The notes under the pieces: generated by a model
Seen by the model: only the letters and a program-made list of their open reading frames with translations
Databases searched by the model: none
What the model was told of the DNA's origin: nothing
Source of the DNA: a virus
Reading direction: 5' to 3' (one strand)
Virus record (IMG/VR): IMGVR_UViG_3300030117_000934
Coordinates: 1 to 30,607 of that record
DNA length: 30,607 nt
Made by a program: the position numbers and the translations under genes
Shown: positions 15,398-29,732 of the stretch, one piece after another
How the letters are laid out: every line of letters starts with the position of its first letter
Numbering within the stretch: position 1 is the stretch's first letter

Positions 15398-16018
15398 TTG
15401 AAAGATTTTATTGAAATATACGATAATGCTTTATCAAATGTTAACTGTAAAATAATTATTGACGAATTTGAAAATACAGAAATTTCCGAAAAATATAGTG
15501 CTGATGTAAACAAATTACATAAACAAAATGTAGACAGGTCATTTAGAAACAAAAAACTAAAATCTTCTCAAGATCTAACGATCTCATTTTTAAAGCAAAA
15601 CTATCCAATAAACCAAATAATAATGTCATGTTTACTTAAGCACAGTAAATTTTATTTGAATAAAAATCCACAGCTAAGAATTTTTTCTAATTGGGGATTA
15701 AATGAAATTTATAATATTCAAAAATATCAGCCTAACCAAGGATATTTTGGTGAGCATTTTGAAAACAATCATGTACAAGATCATAAAAGAGTTATGGTAT
15801 GGATGATTTACTTAAACACAGTTTCTAGTAATGGCGGTACATATTTTAGTAACTACGACAAAACTATTAATGCAGTACAAGGAAGATTGGTCATATGGCC
15901 GGCATATTGGACACATACTCATAGAGGTGTAATAAGTACTGAGGAAATTAAGTATATTGCCACTGGATGGTTTGATACTGAGGCTGCTTTCAAGTTCTAT
16001 CCTAAATTTATAAGCTAA
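15398..16018 (+). CDS. 2-oxoglutarate/Fe(II)-dependent oxygenase, prolyl-4-hydroxylase-like
   Basis: A 206-residue protein with the double-stranded beta-helix pattern of the 2OG-Fe(II) family common in cyanophages. Key elements are GEHFEN (residues 118-123), RVMVWMIYLN (131-140), GGTYF, GRLVIWPAYWTHTHRG (162-177) and KYIATGW (185-191). Proposed iron ligands are His120, Glu122 and a histidine of the THTH segment (His173 or His175); Lys185 is a candidate 2OG-binding residue. The acidic ligand is Glu in an HxE arrangement rather than the more usual HxD. The start is TTG: an in-frame TGA at 15392 excludes a longer form, and the nearby ATG at 15391 opens another frame that stops after seven codons. 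The substrate is unknown. Confidence 0.8.
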   Translation: MKDFIEIYDNALSNVNCKIIIDEFENTEISEKYSADVNKLHKQNVDRSFRNKKLKSSQDLTISFLKQNYPINQIIMSCLLKHSKFYLNKNPQLRIFSNWGLNEIYNIQKYQPNQGYFGEHFENNHVQDHKRVMVWMIYLNTVSSNGGTYFSNYDKTINAVQGRLVIWPAYWTHTHRGVISTEEIKYIATGWFDTEAAFKFYPKFIS

Positions 16019-19060: not shown

Positions 19061-19422
19061 TTGTTTGGTTTTGGATCGATTACTTCAGCACCTTCTATTT
19101 TGATAGGTGTTATTACTCTTATAGTCTGCACCATACCTTGGTTTTCGGCAACTGTGTCGTCTTTCTTGCTACCTTTCTTGGCTTGCTCTAATCCAAAACT
19201 AGAAAGTGCCGTTGCTAGCAAACTGGCCGGAAAAGTTATATCCTGTTTTTCTCCAGTTGTAAGGCCAGGTATTTTTGGCAAGTAATTGCTGGTAACAAGA
19301 AGTCCGCTCCAAAAAACCACCAGAAGCCTAACTGCAATTGAAATATACTCAAATTGCTCTTCTTTATCGTCAATCTTTTCTTTAATTTTTTGCAAAAGAT
19401 TTTTAGGTTTCTTAACTGTCAT
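19057..19422 (-). CDS. Two-helix membrane protein, holin-like candidate
   Basis: A 121-residue protein with a Lys-rich N-terminus (MTVKKPKNLLQKIKEKIDDK), a first membrane helix (about 26-46) and a second, weaker one (about 62-80), followed by a charged C-terminal tail with VITPIKIEGAEVIDP. Size, two helices and charged ends are compatible with a class II holin, and no other clear holin is seen nearby. A structural partner for the three secreted proteins is equally possible. It is the first gene of the leftward four-gene operon and is divergent from 19466-19696. Confidence 0.5.
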   Translation of the reverse strand: MTVKKPKNLLQKIKEKIDDKEEQFEYISIAVRLLVVFWSGLLVTSNYLPKIPGLTTGEKQDITFPASLLATALSSFGLEQAKKGSKKDDTVAENQGMVQTIRVITPIKIEGAEVIDPKPNK

Positions 19423-19465
19423 AAGCCTTTTCTGTCATAATAGTAATATATTGAGGACTCGTAAA
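19412..19465. promoter_or_regulatory. Candidate overlapping divergent promoters
   Basis: The 43-nt gap between divergent genes holds weak elements in both directions. Rightward: TTAACT (19412-19417), an 18-nt spacer and CATAAT (19436-19441). Leftward: TTTACG, a 17-nt spacer and TATTAT (the -10 on the minus strand, plus positions 19437-19442). The leftward site would leave an untranslated leader of under 10 nt. The rightward gene has a good ribosome site, GAGG at 19453-19456. Confidence 0.3.
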
Positions 19466-19696
19466 GTGATTGAGGTAATAGCAGCTACTGGTGGTGCATT
19501 GTTAACAGCTTGTTTTGTATCAGTCGGTTCTATATCTTATCGCGGCAGACAATCGCGTGATGATCTCGTGCGAAACACCACAGCGATCGAATTGCTAAGT
19601 ACGAAAATTGATGATATGCATGACGATATGAAAGAAGTGTTTCATAGGTTAAAAGAAGTAGAACTAGCAGTTGTAGAGATAAAACCAAGAAGATAA
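19466..19696 (+). CDS. Small membrane/coiled-coil protein (GTG start)
   Basis: The reading frame extends far upstream, but the real start is most likely GTG at 19466, nine bases after GAGG. The resulting 76-residue protein begins MIEVIAATGGALLTACFVSV, which is one membrane helix. It continues with YRGRQSRDDLVRNTTAIELLSTKI and a Glu/Lys-rich helix suited to a coiled coil. I remember small MIEVIAAT... proteins with this layout (helix plus dimerising tail) from cyanophage genomes. A holin, antiholin or spanin-like role is possible. The upstream codons overlap the minus-strand membrane gene and look like its shadow. Confidence 0.65.
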   Translation: MIEVIAATGGALLTACFVSVGSISYRGRQSRDDLVRNTTAIELLSTKIDDMHDDMKEVFHRLKEVELAVVEIKPRR

Positions 19697-19723
19697 AAAA
19701 AAAGACCTCTATTGCTAGAAGTC
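19695..19723 (-). terminator. Leftward terminator-like hairpin A
   Basis: On the minus strand the stem GACTTCT / AGAGGTC (one mismatch) with loop AGCAAT-type bases is followed by nine U. The A-run is at 19695-19703 and the hairpin at 19704-19723. Loop and stem resemble hairpin B. It would stop transcription arriving from the right before it runs antisense into 19466-19696. Confidence 0.6.
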
Positions 19724-19765
19724 AAAATTTTCAGTGTGCGAGAAAACTCTCAATTTAAATTTAAC

Positions 19766-19794
19766 AAAAAAAGACTCCTATTGCTAGGAGTCTT
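19766..19794 (-). terminator. Leftward intrinsic terminator B
   Basis: A perfect 9-bp stem (19771-19779 with 19786-19794; core GACTCCT / AGGAGTC) with loop ATTGCT. On the minus strand a run of U follows (A-run 19766-19772). The core is nearly the same as hairpin A, which indicates a duplicated element. Confidence 0.7.
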
Positions 19795-19798
19795 AGTT

Positions 19799-19844
19799 CT
19801 TGTAAGTGTCTAGTGTAGCCTAGTTTCCACTAGTCACTCACAAG
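19799..19844. repeat. 17-bp imperfect inverted repeat with 12-nt loop
   Basis: Left arm 19799-19815 (CTTGTAAGTGTCTAGTG) and right arm 19828-19844 (CACTAGTCACTCACAAG) match at 15 of 17 positions around a 12-nt spacer. It sits in the 207-nt gene-free gap between terminators B and C, and no U-run follows on either strand. It could be an RNA stem-loop, a protein-binding site or an attachment-like site. No recombinase is visible in the window. Confidence 0.7.
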
Positions 19845-19871
19845 TTCTCACACACGCGGATACAATAACAC

Positions 19872-19897
19872 AAAAAAAAGCCCCCTGCATGGGGGCT
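19872..19897 (-). terminator. Leftward intrinsic terminator C after the 148-residue gene
   Basis: AGCCCCC (19879-19885) and GGGGGCT (19891-19897) form a 7-bp stem with a 5-nt loop (TGCAT). On the minus strand a run of about 8 U follows (A-run 19872-19879). It lies 7 nt after the stop of the leftward gene at 19904. Strong and unambiguous. Confidence 0.85.
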
Positions 19898-19903
19898 GTA
19901 ACA

Positions 19904-20350
19904 TTACTGTTTTATCCAGTAACTATAAACACATCTTGTTTCTCCTCTACTAGGATCATAGGTGTCGTTTATAACTCCATCTATAACAGCGCAATAATGT
20001 CTGCTTAGATTACAGATAATTCTACCTTTTGGTAACTCATCTGCTTTTAAATGGACTTTGCAACCAGTTCCAATACCCATCGTAGCAACAGATATAAATC
20101 CTAAACTTTGCATATAGTCTTGAAACCATTTGCGTTTAGTATTGATTCCGTTTCTAGCAGTCCTAACACCACGTCTTGATTTCTTCATGCGTTTAGTAAC
20201 TCTTTGAGTAGCGTTACCTTCTGCAAGTCGATCATAGACTTCTTTGTAAGGAAGCTCTGCTGCAATTGCTATTGCTCTGGCTACACAGTCTCCTGTAAGT
20301 CCTTTGTAACCAGCTTTAGCTCTACCGCCGTCATTGAAATTAAATTCCAT
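19904..20350 (-). CDS. Putative papain/transglutaminase-fold protein, family unknown
   Basis: A 148-residue protein with the order GDCVARAIAIA (Cys22 at the start of a helix), a basic middle region (QRVTKRMKKSRRGVRTARNG), LPKGRIICNLSRHYCAVIDG (His near residue 117) and NDTYDPSRGETRCVYSYW (Asp near 128-131). The Cys-helix, then His-strand and Asp-turn order is that of papain-like cysteine peptidases and transglutaminases. I recall similar GDC.ARA...RH..AVIDG..DT.DPSR proteins in plasmids and phages. Catalysis is an inference. The gene ends at terminator C and stands 54 nt after the 112-residue gene, separated from it by a UUCG hairpin. Confidence 0.6.
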   Translation of the reverse strand: MEFNFNDGGRAKAGYKGLTGDCVARAIAIAAELPYKEVYDRLAEGNATQRVTKRMKKSRRGVRTARNGINTKRKWFQDYMQSLGFISVATMGIGTGCKVHLKADELPKGRIICNLSRHYCAVIDGVINDTYDPSRGETRCVYSYWIKQ

Positions 20351-20377
20351 AATAAAGTATAAAATGTAAGATGTAAT

Positions 20378-20393
20378 GCCCTCCGAAGAGGGC
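20378..20393 (-). promoter_or_regulatory. UUCG-capped hairpin between two leftward genes
   Basis: GCCCTC and GAGGGC form a 6-bp G+C-rich stem. On the minus strand the loop reads C(TTCG)G, the extra-stable tetraloop type. It lies 12 nt after one gene and 28 nt before the next. It has no U-run, so a stability or processing element is likelier than a terminator. Confidence 0.55.
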
Positions 20394-20404
20394 GATAAGT
20401 GAAG

Positions 20405-20743
20405 TTACCTTCCTGTCCACACTTCGTGAACTTCTTGTCCATAGTATTTTGTACACTCTGGATCAGGATCTTTAACGTGTGGATCGAAGTCAGACCAATA
20501 ACTTGTTCCTGTTCTACCAATAATATTGTCTCTTATTGCATGACAATAAGCGGCAAGTTTACTGTTGTAGATAAAACGATCTAAGTTGAAACCAATATAC
20601 ATACCGCTAGGGTAGAACATTGATTTTGGGTCTTTAGGTCGATGTAATTCTTTTTCTAAACCATTTGGAAAATGATTAGAAATGAAAGCATCTACTTCTT
20701 TGAGAGTTTTACACTCTCTAAGCTCAATGAAAGCTTTTTCCAT
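20405..20743 (-). CDS. Hypothetical 112-residue protein
   Basis: I do not recognise this protein. I take ATG at 20743 (MEKAFIELRECKTLKEVDAF) over the TTG three codons earlier. It is mixed alpha/beta and rich in aromatic residues and Asp/Pro in the second half (YPSGMYIGFNLDRFIYNSKL, SYWSDFDPHVKDPDPECTKYYG, EVWTG). The sequence is consistent with a small soluble phage protein such as an inhibitor or adaptor. Upstream on the minus strand, a 6-bp hairpin (20768-20789) lies in its leader. A 54-nt gap with the UUCG hairpin separates it from the next leftward gene. Confidence 0.5.
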   Translation of the reverse strand: MEKAFIELRECKTLKEVDAFISNHFPNGLEKELHRPKDPKSMFYPSGMYIGFNLDRFIYNSKLAAYCHAIRDNIIGRTGTSYWSDFDPHVKDPDPECTKYYGQEVHEVWTGR

Positions 20744-20767
20744 AATATTCAAGAGTCGAGTTGCAAT

Positions 20768-20789
20768 TAGCCGATGCTTCCACCGGCTA
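20768..20789 (-). promoter_or_regulatory. Small leader hairpin upstream of the leftward gene
   Basis: TAGCCG (20768-20773) and CGGCTA (20784-20789) form a 6-bp stem with a 10-nt loop, located 25 nt upstream of the ATG at 20743. No U-run follows on either strand. It may be a leader structure or a protein-binding site; significance is uncertain. Confidence 0.35.
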
Positions 20790-20825
20790 TCCTTATTATA
20801 AAGACAACTAATCAGGAATAGAATT

Positions 20826-20865
20826 TTAGTGTGACACTAATTTAATTGGCACACTAGGTTTGACA
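20826..20865 (+). promoter_or_regulatory. 15-bp perfect palindrome next to a TTGACA element
   Basis: TTAGTGT-G-ACACTAA (20826-20840) is a perfect 7-1-7 palindrome. A partial second copy of the right half, ACACTA, lies at 20851-20856. A consensus -35 hexamer, TTGACA, follows at 20860-20865 and points rightward toward the candidate RNA. A matching -10 at 17 nt is not obvious; TAGTAA (20888) and TAATAT (20891) are further than usual. I call it a likely operator beside a tentative promoter. Confidence 0.45.
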
Positions 20866-20906
20866 TAAAGTTTTTTTCTGCAAATTGTAGTAATATTAGT
20901 AATAAG

Positions 20907-21040
20907 TCGGGAAGCCTGACGATCTCTTGCAAAGCGGATCTGAAAGCTATACCTCTTGATAATATCAAGTTCGGGTTGGGCTTGATGAGAGTAAGGCAGG
21001 GCAGTCTTAAGAGTTCGACTGACTGATCTCCCGATCTTTT
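20907..21040 (+). ncRNA. Candidate structured non-coding RNA
   Basis: This part of the 312-nt gene-free stretch (20744-21055) has no credible ORF on either strand. By hand count 62 of 128 bases (20907-21034) are G or C, about 48 %, far above its surroundings. The ends pair: TCGGGA (20907-20912) with TCCCGA (21029-21034), followed by a T-rich TCTTTTCTT. Internal hairpins are CTTGAT/ATCAAG (20955-20969) and CAGTC/GACTG (21002-21021). ATCAAG (20964-20969) can alternatively pair with a second CTTGAT at 20981-20986, a switch-like arrangement. I recognise no Rfam family. It could instead be the leader of the gene at 21056, which starts 15-20 nt later. Confidence 0.45.
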
Positions 21041-21055
21041 CTTATATACAAAATC

Positions 21056-21217
21056 ATGCTCAAAATTATTGAACCTATTTTATTTGCCTTTCTCCGTGGG
21101 TCAGCAATAAAAAAACTCGCACTTGATATAGTACGAGCGATGGTTAAGAAGACTGATAATACAGTTGACGACAGGCTTTGCGATGCTTTAGAAAGAGCGC
21201 TATTTCCTGGAAGATAA
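21056..21217 (+). CDS. 53-residue conserved phage protein, unknown
   Basis: The protein MLKIIEPILFAFLRGSAIKK... continues with LDIVRAMVKKTDNTVDDRL and ends ALERALFPGR. The N-terminal hydrophobic helix (IIEPILFAFL) and the TDN-x-VDD motif recall small marine phage proteins I have seen; a membrane-associated helix is possible. It sits 15-20 nt after the candidate RNA and ends 1 nt before the convergent 23-residue gene. There is no strong Shine-Dalgarno. Small size limits confidence, but the coding character is good. Confidence 0.65.
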   Translation: MLKIIEPILFAFLRGSAIKKLALDIVRAMVKKTDNTVDDRLCDALERALFPGR

Positions 21218-21289
21218 CTACTTTTTCTTCTTTTTCTTTTTAGGAGGTCTGCCGACCTTACTTCCGTAAGTTCCTTTTCCTGATGGCAT
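21218..21289 (-). CDS. 23-residue basic GKGTYGSKVGRPP protein
   Basis: The protein reads MPSGKGTYGSKVGRPP followed by seven lysines (23 residues, TAG stop). I recognise this micro-protein as widely conserved in marine phages. The core VGRPPK resembles an AT-hook (GRP flanked by basic residues), which would suit binding to the minor groove of AT-rich DNA or to nucleic acid in general. It is convergent with the 53-residue gene and abuts its stop exactly. It shares an AT-rich divergent upstream region (21290-21343) with the gene at 21344. A protein this short would not be called on its own without the conserved motif. Confidence 0.8.
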   Translation of the reverse strand: MPSGKGTYGSKVGRPPKKKKKKK

Positions 21290-21343
21290 GATGGTGTAAA
21301 TAACTATTTATATAGTAAGATATAAAACCTCACATATCCATAA

Positions 21344-21541
21344 ATGCATAGATTAACTTTTGTAAAATGTCCAAAATGCAGAGAAGTTACTAGACAAAAA
21401 GTAATAAGATCTGAAAGAAACTCAAAAAAAACTATCGTTAGAACAAGATTATGCATGATTTGTGAGCATAGATGGCATACGTTTCAAACACCAGAAAGGA
21501 TAATAAATGATAGAAAAGCTGGCTATCTAAGGGCAAGCTAG
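21344..21541 (+). CDS. NrdR-like zinc-ribbon protein
   Basis: A 65-residue protein with Cys9, Cys12, Cys37 and Cys40 (CPKC ... CMIC) followed by HRWHTFQTPE. The spacing and the R-T-R-x-C-x-x-C-x-x-R-x-x-T-F end match the N-terminal zinc ribbon of NrdR, the repressor of ribonucleotide reductase genes. The ATP-cone domain is absent, so this is a stand-alone ribbon. It may bind NrdR-type DNA boxes or compete with host NrdR to raise dNTP supply, but that is inference. No ribonucleotide reductase gene is in the window. It is followed 13 nt later by the 94-residue gene. Confidence 0.7.
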   Translation: MHRLTFVKCPKCREVTRQKVIRSERNSKKTIVRTRLCMICEHRWHTFQTPERIINDRKAGYLRAS

Positions 21542-21554
21542 CTATTGTTAAGGC

Positions 21555-21839
21555 ATGAGACTACAAATGCCTTGGTCTGGTTGGTTCAGTAACCAAGCTA
21601 AAAAAAGGAAAAAAGTAGAGCCTTGGGTAATGGCTGACGTATCCTATGAAGAGGAATTGCATATTGAGATAGTTCTTAGATCTATTGTTAATTACATTGA
21701 TCCTGATGAAGTGCCTGACCTAATAAGTGCTTTATCAAAAGAAAACTATCGCTTAGTAAAAATTATTCAACAAGCTGGCGATCACATAGATAAAATTAAC
21801 GCTAAATCTTCTTCTCCCAAAAATAAGCGCAGTCTTTAG
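21555..21839 (+). CDS. Hypothetical 94-residue acidic helical protein
   Basis: Not recognised. After a basic patch (NQAKKRKKVEPW) it has a mostly helical chain: YEEELHIEIVLRSIVNYIDPDE, LISALSKENYRLVKIIQQAGDHIDK. It then has a Ser/Lys tail. TAAGGC lies about 6 nt before the ATG. The 3' end overlaps the convergent gene 21802-22116 by 38 nt, an uncommon tail-to-tail arrangement for real genes, but both proteins look coding. A small regulatory or inhibitor protein is possible. Confidence 0.5.
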   Translation: MRLQMPWSGWFSNQAKKRKKVEPWVMADVSYEEELHIEIVLRSIVNYIDPDEVPDLISALSKENYRLVKIIQQAGDHIDKINAKSSSPKNKRSL

Positions 21840-24030: not shown

Positions 24031-24231
24031 TTAAGTAATTGGATTAGATTGACGTTTAGCTAATTCGAGAGCCTCTATATCAGCTAACTTATAGAGGATT
24101 TTTCCGTTGATCATAATGTAATCAGGGGGTTTGCCCTCCATTCTCCATCGTGCAACAGAATTGACATGAACTCGCCATCGTTTAGCTAGTTCAGCCGGTG
24201 TTAAAAACTGATCATTACATTCCGTGGTCAT
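24031..24231 (-). CDS. Small helix-turn-helix protein, excisionase/AlpA-like
   Basis: A 66-residue protein with the layout LTPAELAKRWRVHVNSVARWRMEG ... GKILYKLADIEALE. This is the excisionase-type (HTH_17, MerR-like) winged helix: first helix LTPAELAKRW, recognition helix NSVARWRMEG, and the wing IMINGKILYKLADIEAL. It starts inside the RecT-like gene. Such proteins act as excisionases or as transcription regulators. A regulatory role, possibly at the divergent promoter at 26511-26556, is an inference. No integrase is in the window to pair with it. Confidence 0.75.
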   Translation of the reverse strand: MTTECNDQFLTPAELAKRWRVHVNSVARWRMEGKPPDYIMINGKILYKLADIEALELAKRQSNPIT

Positions 24232-24826
24232 CTAAAGTCTCCTTTACTGTCTCAGGTGTAACGTCTAAAGGTTGTATGTCTACAACCTCTTCGCTGGTCT
24301 GTACTCCTAACAATAGGTCAGGAATATATTGTCTGCCAAAAAATGTAGCAGCGCGATTACGCAGCATAAGTTCTGGCATAGATGTGTATTTAGGATTTTT
24401 AGTCCAGCCTTCTAACCTAGCCATCTTCATAGATACTGCTGTGCCTTTCACTATTTTTTGATCCTCTACTCTTTTAGCTACACATTGTACTTCTAATGTT
24501 TCGCCTTCTCCTTTAACTAAGTAATCAAAGTTTTCAAATCTACCGCAGCCCATAATCTGACTACTAATAAATTGTGCTGACCATGTAGGTCTACCATGAA
24601 TGATATTTAAATTTTGCATAACAGTCAAAGGACTAAGGTTCATTCTTTTGCTCATTTCCAATGCCACCAAACAATTAGGTAATCCTTTTTGTCCTTGATA
24701 GCTAATAGGAACTAAATTAGATTCGCATAGACTTTTTGCTTGCCTTTGTGCAAATTCAAAAGAATCTGTGTTCTTGTAAATAGAAGATTCGCCTTCTACT
24801 GGTTGTGTTGTGATTTCTGAAGTCAT
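24215..24826 (-). CDS. recT: RecT-like single-strand annealing protein
   Basis: A 203-residue protein with PISYQGQKGLPNCLVALEMS and KRMNLSPLTVMQNLNIIHGR, then PTWSAQFISSQIMGCGRF, EGWTKN, SMPELMLRNRAATFFGR and a DLLLGVQTSEEV end. This order matches the RecT/annealase group seen in phages. It anneals homologous single strands during phage recombination, partnered with the exonuclease that precedes it (1-nt overlap). It is shorter than E. coli RecT (about 270 residues), as in several phage forms. I hold it to be RecT-like rather than Beta- or ERF-like. Confidence 0.75.
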   Translation of the reverse strand: MTSEITTQPVEGESSIYKNTDSFEFAQRQAKSLCESNLVPISYQGQKGLPNCLVALEMSKRMNLSPLTVMQNLNIIHGRPTWSAQFISSQIMGCGRFENFDYLVKGEGETLEVQCVAKRVEDQKIVKGTAVSMKMARLEGWTKNPKYTSMPELMLRNRAATFFGRQYIPDLLLGVQTSEEVVDIQPLDVTPETVKETLDDHGM

Positions 24827-25674
24827 TAGTAAAGTTCTACCTCCCCATGTAAGTTAGGATCATAATCTGGTTGTTCTTTCTTATCAGTCATCCAAGGTGG
24901 AAGACCGATAGAAGTAATTTCTGGTGTATAGTCTGGAAACTCTTTAGTCTGTAAAGCGTTATCTATTTCTGGAACTAATTTATCTAGTTCTTGCATAGCG
25001 TGATTAATCATATCTCGATCTGCTCTATAAACTCCAACAGAAAAAGGTGGTGTCTTTTCTATTGCAATAAAGATAAAATCATATGTATCAAATCCCAGTT
25101 TCTGTAAACCTCTCATATACCACCCAAGTTGAAGATGGTAGCCCCAGTTTGCAATTGACTTTTGAAATCCTCTAGGACTCGCGTCAGTTGTAGTTTTTAC
25201 ATCTACAACAATTTCTCCAAACTTATCTATCCAATCTGGCCTACATTTACCCTTAACTAAGCCTAAATCATCCCAAAAATAGCTTAATTCTGTTTGTCCT
25301 CCCATATTTTCGTTATAAATCATCTTTGCTGGGCTATCCATAAAAGATTTTTCCATCTCATATAGATTATTACCAAGCTCAGAATCAATAATAATTTTGT
25401 CTTTTTGTTCTAGCGCCCATTCTTTGCCAGCCTTTGTATTAAGTCGCATATCTGCTGGTTTAATAACAAAATCAGTATCAAACTTATCTCGTTCTAGAAA
25501 GAATGCATGAACAGCAGTACCATCTGCCATCGCTTTAGTTTGTTTAACCAAGTCATGGGTCAAACTATACTCAAACTGTTTTTTATTCTTCTTAAATGTG
25601 CGTACACCGGTAGAAGAGATATGTGTTTTTCTGCCGTGATATTCGGCGTTTGTAATGATTTCTGGTTTATACAT
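24826..25674 (-). CDS. RecE/PD-(D/E)XK exonuclease-like protein
   Basis: A 282-residue nuclease of the DUF3799-like (RecE C-terminal) group. Marks are EYHGRKTHISSTGVRTF at the start, DGTAVHAFFLE with His56, Glu129 (QTELSYFW), Asp147 (RPDWID), the metal-binding Asp158-Val-Lys160 (IVVDVKTT) and YHLQLGWYMRG carrying Gln182. In phages such enzymes resect dsDNA 5' to 3' to give the strand that RecT coats. Catalytic residues look complete. The gene is directly upstream of the annealing protein in the operon. The start is ATG, 8 nt inside the upstream gene. Confidence 0.85.
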   Translation of the reverse strand: MYKPEIITNAEYHGRKTHISSTGVRTFKKNKKQFEYSLTHDLVKQTKAMADGTAVHAFFLERDKFDTDFVIKPADMRLNTKAGKEWALEQKDKIIIDSELGNNLYEMEKSFMDSPAKMIYNENMGGQTELSYFWDDLGLVKGKCRPDWIDKFGEIVVDVKTTTDASPRGFQKSIANWGYHLQLGWYMRGLQKLGFDTYDFIFIAIEKTPPFSVGVYRADRDMINHAMQELDKLVPEIDNALQTKEFPDYTPEITSIGLPPWMTDKKEQPDYDPNLHGEVELY

Positions 25675-25921
25675 CTTTTTCTATCCTATCTTTCCAGTTA
25701 TCAAAGCCATCATTGTAAAGCTTGTCTCCCCATCCAAGAAAAGTATCAAGCTCATTACAATCACAAATTTGTTTTAGTAAATCACTAGTCATTATGTTGT
25801 ATAGTTCTTTTTCTCCAAAGCGTTGAAAACCACTATCAACAGCACTACAAAAACCTTTGTAATTATCTGTTCTTACATGAAGTAATAAACGATCTACTAA
25901 TTCTGATTTTGTAAATGACAT
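25667..25921 (-). CDS. Hypothetical 84-residue protein
   Basis: Not recognised. It is helical and acidic at both ends (LVDRLLLHVRTDNYKGF, LLKQICDCNELDTFLGWGDK). It overlaps the nuclease gene by 8 nt and the RHH gene by 1 nt. Position at the start of the recombination cassette makes it a possible modulator of recombination or of host nucleases (for example a RecBCD-type inhibitor), but the sequence has no diagnostic motif for that. Confidence 0.5.
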   Translation of the reverse strand: MSFTKSELVDRLLLHVRTDNYKGFCSAVDSGFQRFGEKELYNIMTSDLLKQICDCNELDTFLGWGDKLYNDGFDNWKDRIEKDV

Positions 25922-26199
25922 TATTTACCCCTCCAAAAATGTGGATCTTCGTCATCGTTAAATGACAAGTCAGGTTCAGCTAAAGTTGTAGGGGCAGATG
26001 CATTTATTCTTTTAAGATGTATTTCTGCATCACGATAGGTTTCTAACTCTATAATAAAATTCTTTTTAAGCCATTCACTAAATCCTTTAGCAACAACCAT
26101 AGAAAATGATGTGCCATGTAGTTCAGCCAATGTTTTTACCATTTTATATTCAAGTGTTGAAAATAAAGTGACGTTAATTCGTTGATCTTTTTTGTCCAT
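25921..26199 (-). CDS. Putative ribbon-helix-helix DNA-binding protein
   Basis: I prefer ATG at 26199 (92 residues; TAATG overlap with the upstream stop) to a GTG four codons earlier. Residues 1-45 have the ribbon-helix-helix layout: basic start, RINVTL beta strand, then EYKMVKTLAELHGTSFSMVV and a second helix, AKGFSEWLKKN. RHH proteins bind DNA as dimers, often at their own promoters, so the palindrome at 26537-26552 is a natural candidate site. The acidic C-terminal tail (DLSFNDDEDPHFW) has no known role. Confidence 0.6.
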   Translation of the reverse strand: MDKKDQRINVTLFSTLEYKMVKTLAELHGTSFSMVVAKGFSEWLKKNFIIELETYRDAEIHLKRINASAPTTLAEPDLSFNDDEDPHFWRGK

Positions 26200-26498
26200 T
26201 ATTCGTACCACTCCACACCAAGATTATTTTTCTTAAGCCATTCTTTGTTAGAAACAACTTCGTTCATAATGCATCTAGCAATAATCATTTTTGATTTATC
26301 ACCACAAAATTGATCCTTTGTTATTTTTTTTAAAAGCTGTTTGTCACCATTTAGAATTTTTTCTATGGTGTGGTTCCACTTGATTGCTACTGATCTTTGC
26401 ATTAAATCTCTTGCATCGTCTAGATCATCTCTGTTAGCACAAGATAAAGATTCTTCTAATAAAACTTGTGCCAGTTTTTCTCGTTGTTCTTCGTTCAT
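26199..26498 (-). CDS. Hypothetical first gene of the leftward operon
   Basis: A 99-residue protein starting at ATG 26498 (a TTG one codon earlier is less likely). It is helical and charged: EEQREKLAQVLLEESLSCAN, DLDDARDLMQRSVAIKWNHT. The rest carries a KDQFCGDKSKMI stretch and ends LGVEWYE. I do not recognise a family. It is closest to the divergent promoter, with a leader of roughly 23 nt, and has no obvious Shine-Dalgarno. Confidence 0.5.
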   Translation of the reverse strand: MNEEQREKLAQVLLEESLSCANRDDLDDARDLMQRSVAIKWNHTIEKILNGDKQLLKKITKDQFCGDKSKMIIARCIMNEVVSNKEWLKKNNLGVEWYE

Positions 26499-26510: not shown

Positions 26511-26556
26511 TTGACTTATTAATTAACATCCTATATCATTTGATAACAAATGTCAA
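26511..26556. promoter_or_regulatory. Interleaved divergent promoters with a shared palindrome
   Basis: Rightward: TTGACT (26511-26516), 17-nt spacer, TATCAT (26534-26539). Leftward: TTGACA (plus 26551-26556), 17-nt spacer, TAGGAT (plus 26528-26533). The two promoters overlap, so polymerase cannot occupy both easily. A palindrome CATTTG-ATAA-CAAATG (26537-26552) covers the rightward -10 end and touches the leftward -35. It is a good operator candidate for a dimeric regulator, for example the RHH or HTH proteins in the leftward operon. Sequence evidence is by eye; no experimental data. Confidence 0.65.
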
Positions 26557-26560
26557 CATA

Positions 26561-28699
26561 ATGCAACTCAGGGATTATCAAACAAAAGCAATATCTGATT
26601 TAAGGTCGTCCTTTAAACAGGGCAACAAATCCCCTCTTCTTGTGATGCCTACAGGATCAGGTAAGACTGTTGTCTTTGCAGAAATATCTAAAGCTTTAGA
26701 ATCTAATAAGAAAAATGTATTAATACTCGTACATAGAAAAGAACTTGTAGACCAAGCATCTAACAAACTTAATATTGTCGATGTAGATCATGGCATTATT
26801 GCATCTGGATATAAAGGTAAAACGAATAATATACAAGTTGCGTCAGTACAAACTTTAGTAAGAAGGCTAGAAACTATTGATTACAAACCAGATTATATAA
26901 TTGTTGATGAGGCGCATCATGCAGCCGCTGGTACTTGGCAAAAAATCATAAATCACTACAAAGACACTTACAAGATAGGTTGTACTGCAACTCCAGAGAG
27001 ATTAGATGGCAAAGGACTAGCAGATTTTTTTGATGACATGATATTAGGCAGAGATACTTCAACTCTCATCGAACAAGGATATTTAGCGCCATATAAGGTA
27101 TATGCACCCCCTTTTAAGGTTAATTTAGACAAAATAACAACGAAAAGAGGAGATTATGCTAAGGGAGAGCTAGTTGAAGAGATGAGCAAAACATCAATTA
27201 TTGGCGATGCAGTAGAACAATATAGAAAACACGCCGATGGTTTACCAGCTATTGCATTTTGCGTTTCTATAAAACACGCAGAAGATGTAAAAAATAAATT
27301 TCTCGAGGCTGGTTATAAAGCAGCAATAGTTCATGGCGAGATGAAAACAACAGAACGCGATGAAGCAATAAAAGGTTTAGCTAATGGTTCTGTACAAGTA
27401 TTAACTTCTGTAGATGTAATTAGTGAGGGGACTGATGTTCCAGTAGTTGCAGCGGCTATCTTATTACGTCCAACACAATCTCTTGCTTTATATCTACAAC
27501 AAGTAGGAAGAATTCTTAGGCCGCAAGCAAACAAAACAGCAATAATATTAGATCATGTAAACAGCACTAGAACTCATGGATTTGTTGATGATGAAAGGCA
27601 ATGGGATCTTAATCCAATAATTAAAACAACAAGAAAAGGTGTTAAAGCTGTAGGTGTAGAAACTTGTAAACAATGTTTTGCTACATATAAACCACAACCA
27701 GTATGTCCAGTATGTGGTTACAAAGCGGAAACTAAGGAGAGAATATTATTAACAGAAGAAGGAGAGTTAGAATTACTAAACAAAGAAAAAGAACCACAAA
27801 CTCTTAAAAATAACTATAAAGATTCTATCTATGCCAGCAAACAATTTAATGACAAGATTACAAGAGAATTTAATAAAATAAATCGTAAATCAAAAATAAT
27901 ATTTGAAACAGAAAGATCTTGGATTACTAGTAATAAATTTGATACTAAAAAAGATACTCAAGTAAAGATTGGAGATAATATTGTTTTTTATGAAGGAATG
28001 AATCAACCTAGATATGGAATTGTTGTTGGTTTTGTTCGTCAAACTATAAAGGTTGGAATTACTTATCCATACTTTGTTCCGGCAGTACCAGATAAACATA
28101 AAAATATGGGGTTTAATTATGCACATCCAGAAATAGTAAAAGAAGGTGTAAACTTTGGAGAAATAAAAGATATAAAAGCAAATAAAGAGATATTAGATAA
28201 AATTGTCTTTCTTGGAAAAAGATTTCAGCCATATGTGAATTTAAAACATAACGAATTTGTTTTTGCTTCTGAGAAACTATATTTACGCAGATTAAGAAGA
28301 AATGATGGTAAATCTTGTAAAGCTTATAAATTAATTCTTCTTACAGACAAAGGTATAGAACAATATGATCCGTCAGATAAAACTGGTAATAATCCATTAC
28401 CAACAATAAATTTTAAGCAAGCATTAAAAGTAAGACAGCAAATAAGAGATATAAAACCAGATAAGTTCTTGATAGAAAAATTTATTAAGATCTGCCGTGA
28501 TGCAAGTTTTAGAGTTAATTACAACGCAGATTGGATTTATAGAAATGTATGCGCCAAGAAATTTATAGACATTATGCAAAAAAAAGCAGAATTAAGAGAT
28601 TGCAAAACTGTAGAAGAGTTTGAAGCAGTTGCACTCAAACATGGTTACAAAAAGGGTTGGGGATATTACCAATGGCAGTTAAGGAATAAAAAAAGATGA
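26561..28699 (+). CDS. DEAH-box superfamily 2 helicase with zinc ribbon and extended C-terminus
   Basis: I choose ATG 26561 (712 residues, starting MQLRDYQTKAI, the usual Q-motif-like beginning) over the TTG at 26540, which lies at the predicted -10 end. Motifs: MPTGSGKT (residues 29-36, Walker A), DEAH (116-119), TATP (142-145) and QQVGRILRP (313-321, arginine finger). A C-x2-C...C-x2-C zinc ribbon follows (Cys369, 372, 382, 385). The remaining ~320 residues carry an unfamiliar beta-rich region (about 450-600) and end in the motif GYKKGWGYYQWQLR, which is typical of this helicase group's tail. It probably unwinds DNA during replication or recombination. It overlaps the next gene by 4 nt. Confidence 0.85.
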   Translation: MQLRDYQTKAISDLRSSFKQGNKSPLLVMPTGSGKTVVFAEISKALESNKKNVLILVHRKELVDQASNKLNIVDVDHGIIASGYKGKTNNIQVASVQTLVRRLETIDYKPDYIIVDEAHHAAAGTWQKIINHYKDTYKIGCTATPERLDGKGLADFFDDMILGRDTSTLIEQGYLAPYKVYAPPFKVNLDKITTKRGDYAKGELVEEMSKTSIIGDAVEQYRKHADGLPAIAFCVSIKHAEDVKNKFLEAGYKAAIVHGEMKTTERDEAIKGLANGSVQVLTSVDVISEGTDVPVVAAAILLRPTQSLALYLQQVGRILRPQANKTAIILDHVNSTRTHGFVDDERQWDLNPIIKTTRKGVKAVGVETCKQCFATYKPQPVCPVCGYKAETKERILLTEEGELELLNKEKEPQTLKNNYKDSIYASKQFNDKITREFNKINRKSKIIFETERSWITSNKFDTKKDTQVKIGDNIVFYEGMNQPRYGIVVGFVRQTIKVGITYPYFVPAVPDKHKNMGFNYAHPEIVKEGVNFGEIKDIKANKEILDKIVFLGKRFQPYVNLKHNEFVFASEKLYLRRLRRNDGKSCKAYKLILLTDKGIEQYDPSDKTGNNPLPTINFKQALKVRQQIRDIKPDKFLIEKFIKICRDASFRVNYNADWIYRNVCAKKFIDIMQKKAELRDCKTVEEFEAVALKHGYKKGWGYYQWQLRNKKR

Positions 28700-29333: not shown

Positions 29334-29732
29334 ATGAAAAACTCTGCTATTTTATTATTAGATTTTATAATCTCGACTTTGTCTAATTCAGAGACAAAAA
29401 TTCAACAAGAAATTCGATTAGCTCTTGGACAACGATCTGATTTGCGCTTATTTCGCAACGAAACTGGAAAACTTCCAGATCCTAGAACAGGCAGATGGGT
29501 TCAGTTTGGATTGGCAAAGGGTAGTTCTGACCTTATTGGTTTTAAGACTGTCAAGATTACTCCTGAGATGATAGGACAAGAAGTTGCTCAGTTTGTTTCT
29601 ATTGAAATCAAAACAGAACGTGGCAAACTGACAGATGTACAACAAAATTGGCTTCAAAAGGTAAAGAGTTCTGGCGGCATTGTCGGCGTTGCTCGTACTG
29701 TTAAAGATGCCTTGCAAATTTTAAAAGTCTAA
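29334..29732 (+). CDS. VRR-NUC domain nuclease
   Basis: A 132-residue protein with the VRR-NUC (PD-(D/E)XK) layout: E-x-x-I-Q-Q-E-I-R with Glu20/Glu26, LFRNETGKLPD, QFGLAKGSSDLIGF with Asp66, Glu91-Ile-Lys93 (SIEIKTERGKL), QQNWLQKV and GGIVGVARTVKDAL. The active site appears complete. Such phage enzymes are Holliday-junction or structure-specific nucleases that resolve recombination or replication intermediates, and this one sits between helicase and primase. It is followed by a hairpin and a run of eight T that begins within its last codons. Confidence 0.85.
   Translation: MKNSAILLLDFIISTLSNSETKIQQEIRLALGQRSDLRLFRNETGKLPDPRTGRWVQFGLAKGSSDLIGFKTVKITPEMIGQEVAQFVSIEIKTERGKLTDVQQNWLQKVKSSGGIVGVARTVKDALQILKV

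Follow-up and report, generated by a model that had tools for sequence, protein, structure and literature searches.

A conserved, probable bidirectional promoter between the recombination and replication operons of a group of uncultivated phages

The DNA under study, called the window in the following, is a 30,607-base IMG/VR virus record with siphovirus-type tail genes, in which two operons diverge from a 46-nt interval. The leftward operon comprises a 99-aa gene, an RHH-looking gene and the genes of a RecE-like exonuclease, a RecT-like protein and an HTH_17 protein. The rightward operon comprises the genes of a superfamily 2 helicase, a gene without assigned function, a resolvase-like nuclease and a primase/helicase-like gene. 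A first-pass annotation had placed overlapping divergent promoters between a recombination (left) and a replication (right) operon, and the analysis supports this. The features of the region are as follows:

24031-24231, - strand: 66-aa HTH_17 protein resembling BldC/excisionases, candidate regulator
24215-24826, - strand: RecT-like annealing protein (phrog_561)
24826-25674, - strand: RecE-like exonuclease (DUF3799, phrog_412)
25921-26199, - strand: RHH-looking gene
26199-26498, - strand: 99-aa protein, function unassigned, first leftward gene
26511-26516, + strand: -35 box of the rightward promoter, TTGACT, kept in relatives
26521, - strand: predicted leftward transcription start, approximate, placed from the -10 box
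26528-26533, - strand: -10 box of the leftward promoter, TAGGAT
26532-26535: TATA at the symmetry centre, where the TA of one -10 box meets that of the other; invariant in the representatives
26534-26539, + strand: -10 box of the rightward promoter, TATCAT
26537-26552: palindrome CATTTG-ATAA-CAAATG, proposed at first pass, not conserved
26537-26566, + strand: three loosely similar 10-mers, CATTTGATAA/CAAATGTCAA/CATAATGCAA, a 10-bp direct repeat signal
26546, + strand: predicted rightward transcription start, placed 7 nt past the -10 box and at a conserved purine
26551-26556, - strand: -35 box of the leftward promoter, TTGACA
26561-28699, + strand: superfamily 2 helicase (ResIII, phrog_16), first rightward gene
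29334-29732, + strand: resolvase/endonuclease-like gene of the rightward operon

Elsewhere in the window, a 2OG-Fe(II) oxygenase-like gene was seen at 15398-16018 (phrog_61, 5.2e-36). The leftward block contains an intergenic stretch (19422-19904) with several terminator-like hairpins (19704-19723, 19771-19794, 19879-19897) and a region of about 1.4 kb (20350-21802) in which all reading frames are short and doubtful.

Both hexamer pairs that the first-pass annotation had described are confirmed in the sequence, each with a spacer of exactly 17 nt. The rightward promoter reads TTGACT-17-TATCAT (26511-26539, + strand) and the leftward promoter TTGACA-17-TAGGAT (26556-26528, - strand). Their -10 boxes abut as ATCC-TA/TA-TCAT, the slash marking the boundary, and the interval overall has the form TTGACT-N15-TATA-N15-TGTCAA. 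The hexamers read as sigma70-type. The predicted starts lie 25 bp apart in the window and about 15 bp apart in a clade with a 56-nt version of the interval. The predicted leader of the helicase mRNA (26546-26560) would be about 15 nt long, is without a visible Shine-Dalgarno sequence and contains the leftward -35 box. The -10 box could alternatively be read as TATAnn with a 15-nt spacer. This reading was dropped, because it is TAGTAT/TATCAT at 17 nt that persists in the 56-nt clade, whereas TATA at 15 nt is not kept on its rightward side. A second TTGACT-17-TATCAT inside recT (24628-24600, - strand) has no counterpart in a 50.6-kb relative and was taken as a chance match.

Relatives were found by similarity to the helicase and RecT proteins and by DNA pattern, and the pooled searches gave approximately 30 contigs with the same junction. 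In the approximately 20 contigs from protein similarity alone, the mirrored layout is found wherever the helicase directly adjoins the leftward exonuclease/RecT operon. It usually measures 46 nt overall; in some GC-rich relatives, the leftward half alone is clearly kept. The element is absent where the helicase follows a gene of the same direction (e.g. L003, L026-L045), and it is kept across helicases that are about 50-95% identical to that of the window. In those protein-found loci where the helicase adjoins the leftward operon, the synteny of exonuclease, RecT and HTH on the left and of helicase and resolvase on the right is kept as far as the flanks reach. The first leftward gene varies while the promoter stays; the closest relative (L002), for instance, has an additional 52-aa gene and no RHH gene. 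In relatives of 50.6 and 52.4 kb, the genome diverges chiefly at this junction. At the DNA level, the region had no match among cultured phages, and a pattern scan of bacterial genomes gave two matches, neither of them with a helicase reading frame.

In the alignment across relatives that had been proposed as a check, the key hexamer positions proved strongly conserved. For the main statistic, loci found by patterns containing TATA or CAAC were excluded to avoid circularity, and twelve key positions were considered (TTG of the -35 box and T1, A2 and T6 of the -10 box, on both strands). In ten protein-found representatives these positions reach a mean of 1.85 bits versus 0.69 bits outside the hexamers, a promoter value that occurred in none of 100,000 column permutations. 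The hexamers and their spacing are thus conserved while the surrounding sequence changes. The predicted rightward start at 26546 is an A in all ten protein-found representatives and a purine in 14/14 when the pattern-found ones are added; at the predicted leftward start (26521), no conserved purine was seen.

The element also varies between groups. In one clade (L011-L013, L069, L079) it measures 56 nt instead of 46 and both promoters are whole; the extra 10 bp between the -35 boxes correspond to about one helical turn. L022, L023/L024 and L157 have no clear rightward -35 box, and L007, L087, L108 and the GC-rich groups have -35 boxes of the type TTGC or TTGT, not TTGAC. In L007, L087, L108, L020, L128 and L164, the two -35 boxes vary jointly, with TTGC or TTGT and GCAA in place of TTGAC, which perhaps reflects the sigma preference of the host or a shared binding protein. 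In L047 and L048/L075, a small rightward gene of Cro/XRE-type HTH appearance seems, by eye and from sequence only, to precede the helicase.

In our reading, the interval is very probably a bidirectional promoter of the sigma70 type, made up of two complete, interleaved promoters that are nearly symmetric about the central TATA. We infer promoter activity here, with RNA polymerase binding in either orientation and presumably never in both at once. Transcription of the replication operon would start near 26546 to the right and that of the recombination operon near 26521 to the left. The mutual exclusion of the two promoters that was claimed at first pass agrees with this geometry, which should enforce exclusive binding of the polymerase by steric means. 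As the genome's main point of divergence, the junction is probably an early promoter that supplies both gene blocks from a single site. The 66-aa BldC-like HTH protein of the leftward operon perhaps tunes this promoter or shuts it off.

The first-pass annotation had named two proteins of the left operon as possible regulators, and the HTH protein (24031-24231) remains a plausible one. Its gene was found in 10/10 element-bearing records tested, versus weak matches in 3/14 other records; this distribution is a lead rather than proof, because the two sets of records are also of different ancestry and the comparison set includes several short contigs. The protein has an HTH_17 match and its best PDB matches are the BldC chains 6amk and 6ama (about 1e-4). 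With 66 aa it is also of the size of BldC, which consists of a wHTH only (about 68 residues), although its score of 22.3 bits lies far below the NCBI BldC cut-off of 77. Regulators of the BldC family bind head-to-tail direct repeats; BldC protects tracts at intervals of one helical turn on its repeats (PMC5859096), and the excisionase-like RdfS belongs to the same HTH group (PMC11963761).

A repeat of 10 bp, looked for post hoc, is indeed indicated at the junction. Each half shows self-similarity at a lag of 10 bp and at few others, which include 7 in the left half. For the 10-bp lag, comparison with real DNA of the same loci gave p values of 0.0002 on the right and 0.00065 on the left when eight collapsed clades were used. 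Compared with Markov shuffles and corrected for all lags, the values are 0.0013 (right) and 0.015 (left) with ten clades, but only marginal with eight (0.04 right, 0.09 left). The left half of the window itself has no clear 10-bp repeat. On the right, the three 10-mers span 26537-26566, so that the arms of the palindrome can be read as two units of a 10-bp array. As a tentative addition to the bidirectional promoter, the HTH_17 protein might be a BldC/excisionase-like autoregulator that assembles on such direct repeats across the promoter and sets the direction of the promoter or shuts it.

Conservation by itself cannot separate a promoter from a site of the same shape for another protein. The conserved dyad might mainly bind another phage or host protein, for instance in replication initiation, with the promoter likeness being incidental. 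The long imperfect dyad TTGAC-N36-GTCAA, the joint variation of both -35 boxes in some groups and the start of the replication operon at the junction would fit such a site. We nevertheless consider it improbable, since conservation falls exactly on the positions of -35 and -10 boxes separated by 17 nt, each promoter is whole in the clade with the 10-bp extension and a purine is kept at the predicted start.

Less probable still is the genetic switch that the first-pass annotation had suggested, in which a phage repressor, either RHH or HTH, would use the palindrome as its operator and choose between recombination and replication. The overlapping promoters with a palindrome across them, and two proteins of DNA-binding appearance in the left operon, had spoken for it. 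The palindrome does lie over the promoters, but as an operator it was rejected for its chance-level frequency (palindromes with 6-bp arms occur in 27% of local shuffles) and its lack of conservation. Lack of conservation in relatives had been named at first pass as one of the outcomes that would speak against the switch. In L002 the palindrome contains one mismatch, in L044 it contains two and in L014 three; GC-rich relatives retain 0-2 of 6 pairs, and its positions outside the hexamers reach 0.44 bits in the ten protein-found representatives. As to the two DNA-binding proteins, the HTH_17 match bears out one of them, whereas the RHH label of the other is by appearance alone, family searches with this protein having given no match of weight. 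A regulatory role of the RHH protein was rejected, as its gene is present in the window only and missing from all nine other records tested. The idea of a decision point, in the sense of a lysis-lysogeny switch, found no support either: an integrase was detected in none of ten records, which may be fragments. No regulator gene adjoins the junction, and the pairing of such a gene with a conserved operator, by which a lambda-like switch would be recognized, is absent.

Single promoter-like matches mean little, because such sites are no commoner in the window than in its shuffles. Promoter likeness arising by chance in AT-rich DNA, for which this count would speak, is hardly credible, since the pair is conserved in relatives, GC-rich ones included, and an interleaved divergent pair (a 17-nt spacer and 10/12 matches on either strand) is rare in shuffles. 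It arose in 1/100 dinucleotide shuffles of the whole window and, when the local 62 nt were shuffled, in 5/20,000 cases. Counting both strands, the 50.6-kb relative contains just two copies of TTGAC-N18-TAnnAT, namely its junction promoters.

The bidirectional promoter that we prefer has both viral and bacterial parallels. Closely placed divergent promoters with dedicated regulators and demonstrated switching are known from lambda (PR/PRM) and phi29 (A2b/A2c/A3), and the junction resembles them in the close placement of its promoters. In pLS20, the divergent promoters Pc and Pr overlap as well and likewise lie between two gene blocks, with a dedicated regulator (RcoLS20), looping and demonstrated switching (PMC4207663). 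Established regulators and demonstrated switching set these systems apart from the phage junction.

Similar in form are the bidirectional promoters described by Warman, Grainger and colleagues in E. coli and other prokaryotes. These are short pseudo-symmetric sites with shared or touching -10 boxes, from which divergent mRNAs arise with the polymerase in one orientation at a time (PMC12825309, PMC10268837). At the phage junction, the -10 boxes on opposite strands likewise touch in the TATA at 26532-26535. The predicted starts are about 25 bp apart, versus the separations of 18, 10 and 23 bp, with slight variation, that are reported as common in E. coli (PMC12825309). Unlike the E. coli promoters, the phage site has a good -35 box at 17 nt on both sides and is conserved across a virus group. 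Overlap by itself does not make a switch, because basal firing in E. coli is too low for competition; one direction is repressed only under strong activation of the other, and MerR-type proteins lock one orientation (PMC12825309).

Among cultured phages, Enterobacter phage Arya, Pseudomonas phage Dolphis, Bordetella phage PHB04 and Pseudomonas phage ZRG1 show the same divergence of helicase and recombination genes as the window, and in Arya, Dolphis and PHB04 a relative of the HTH gene lies within the recombination block, as it does in the window. Unlike the window, some of the four have a regulator-like gene at the junction. The interleaved promoter pair was found in none of five cultured-phage junctions scanned, which have similar genes and in part a divergent layout. 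Our literature search, in sources thin in subscription journals, found no paper describing the junction. Bidirectional promoters are an established class, and the junction is very probably a conserved new member of it, at the main divergence point of the phage group.

If this reading is right, early control in a broad group of uncultivated phages would centre on a single two-way promoter of 46 bp, rather than on two distinct promoters flanking a repressor gene. It would also provide a small, directly testable bidirectional promoter that is maintained by selection in viruses, and one conserved small protein, the HTH protein, would become the first candidate for its regulator. It is conceivable, although rather doubtful at present, that in a wide group of uncultivated phages this 66-aa wHTH protein, assembled on 10-bp direct repeats, sets how transcription is divided between recombination and replication, or shuts it off. 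Should this hold true, control would need neither a repressor gene at the junction nor an operator of palindromic form.
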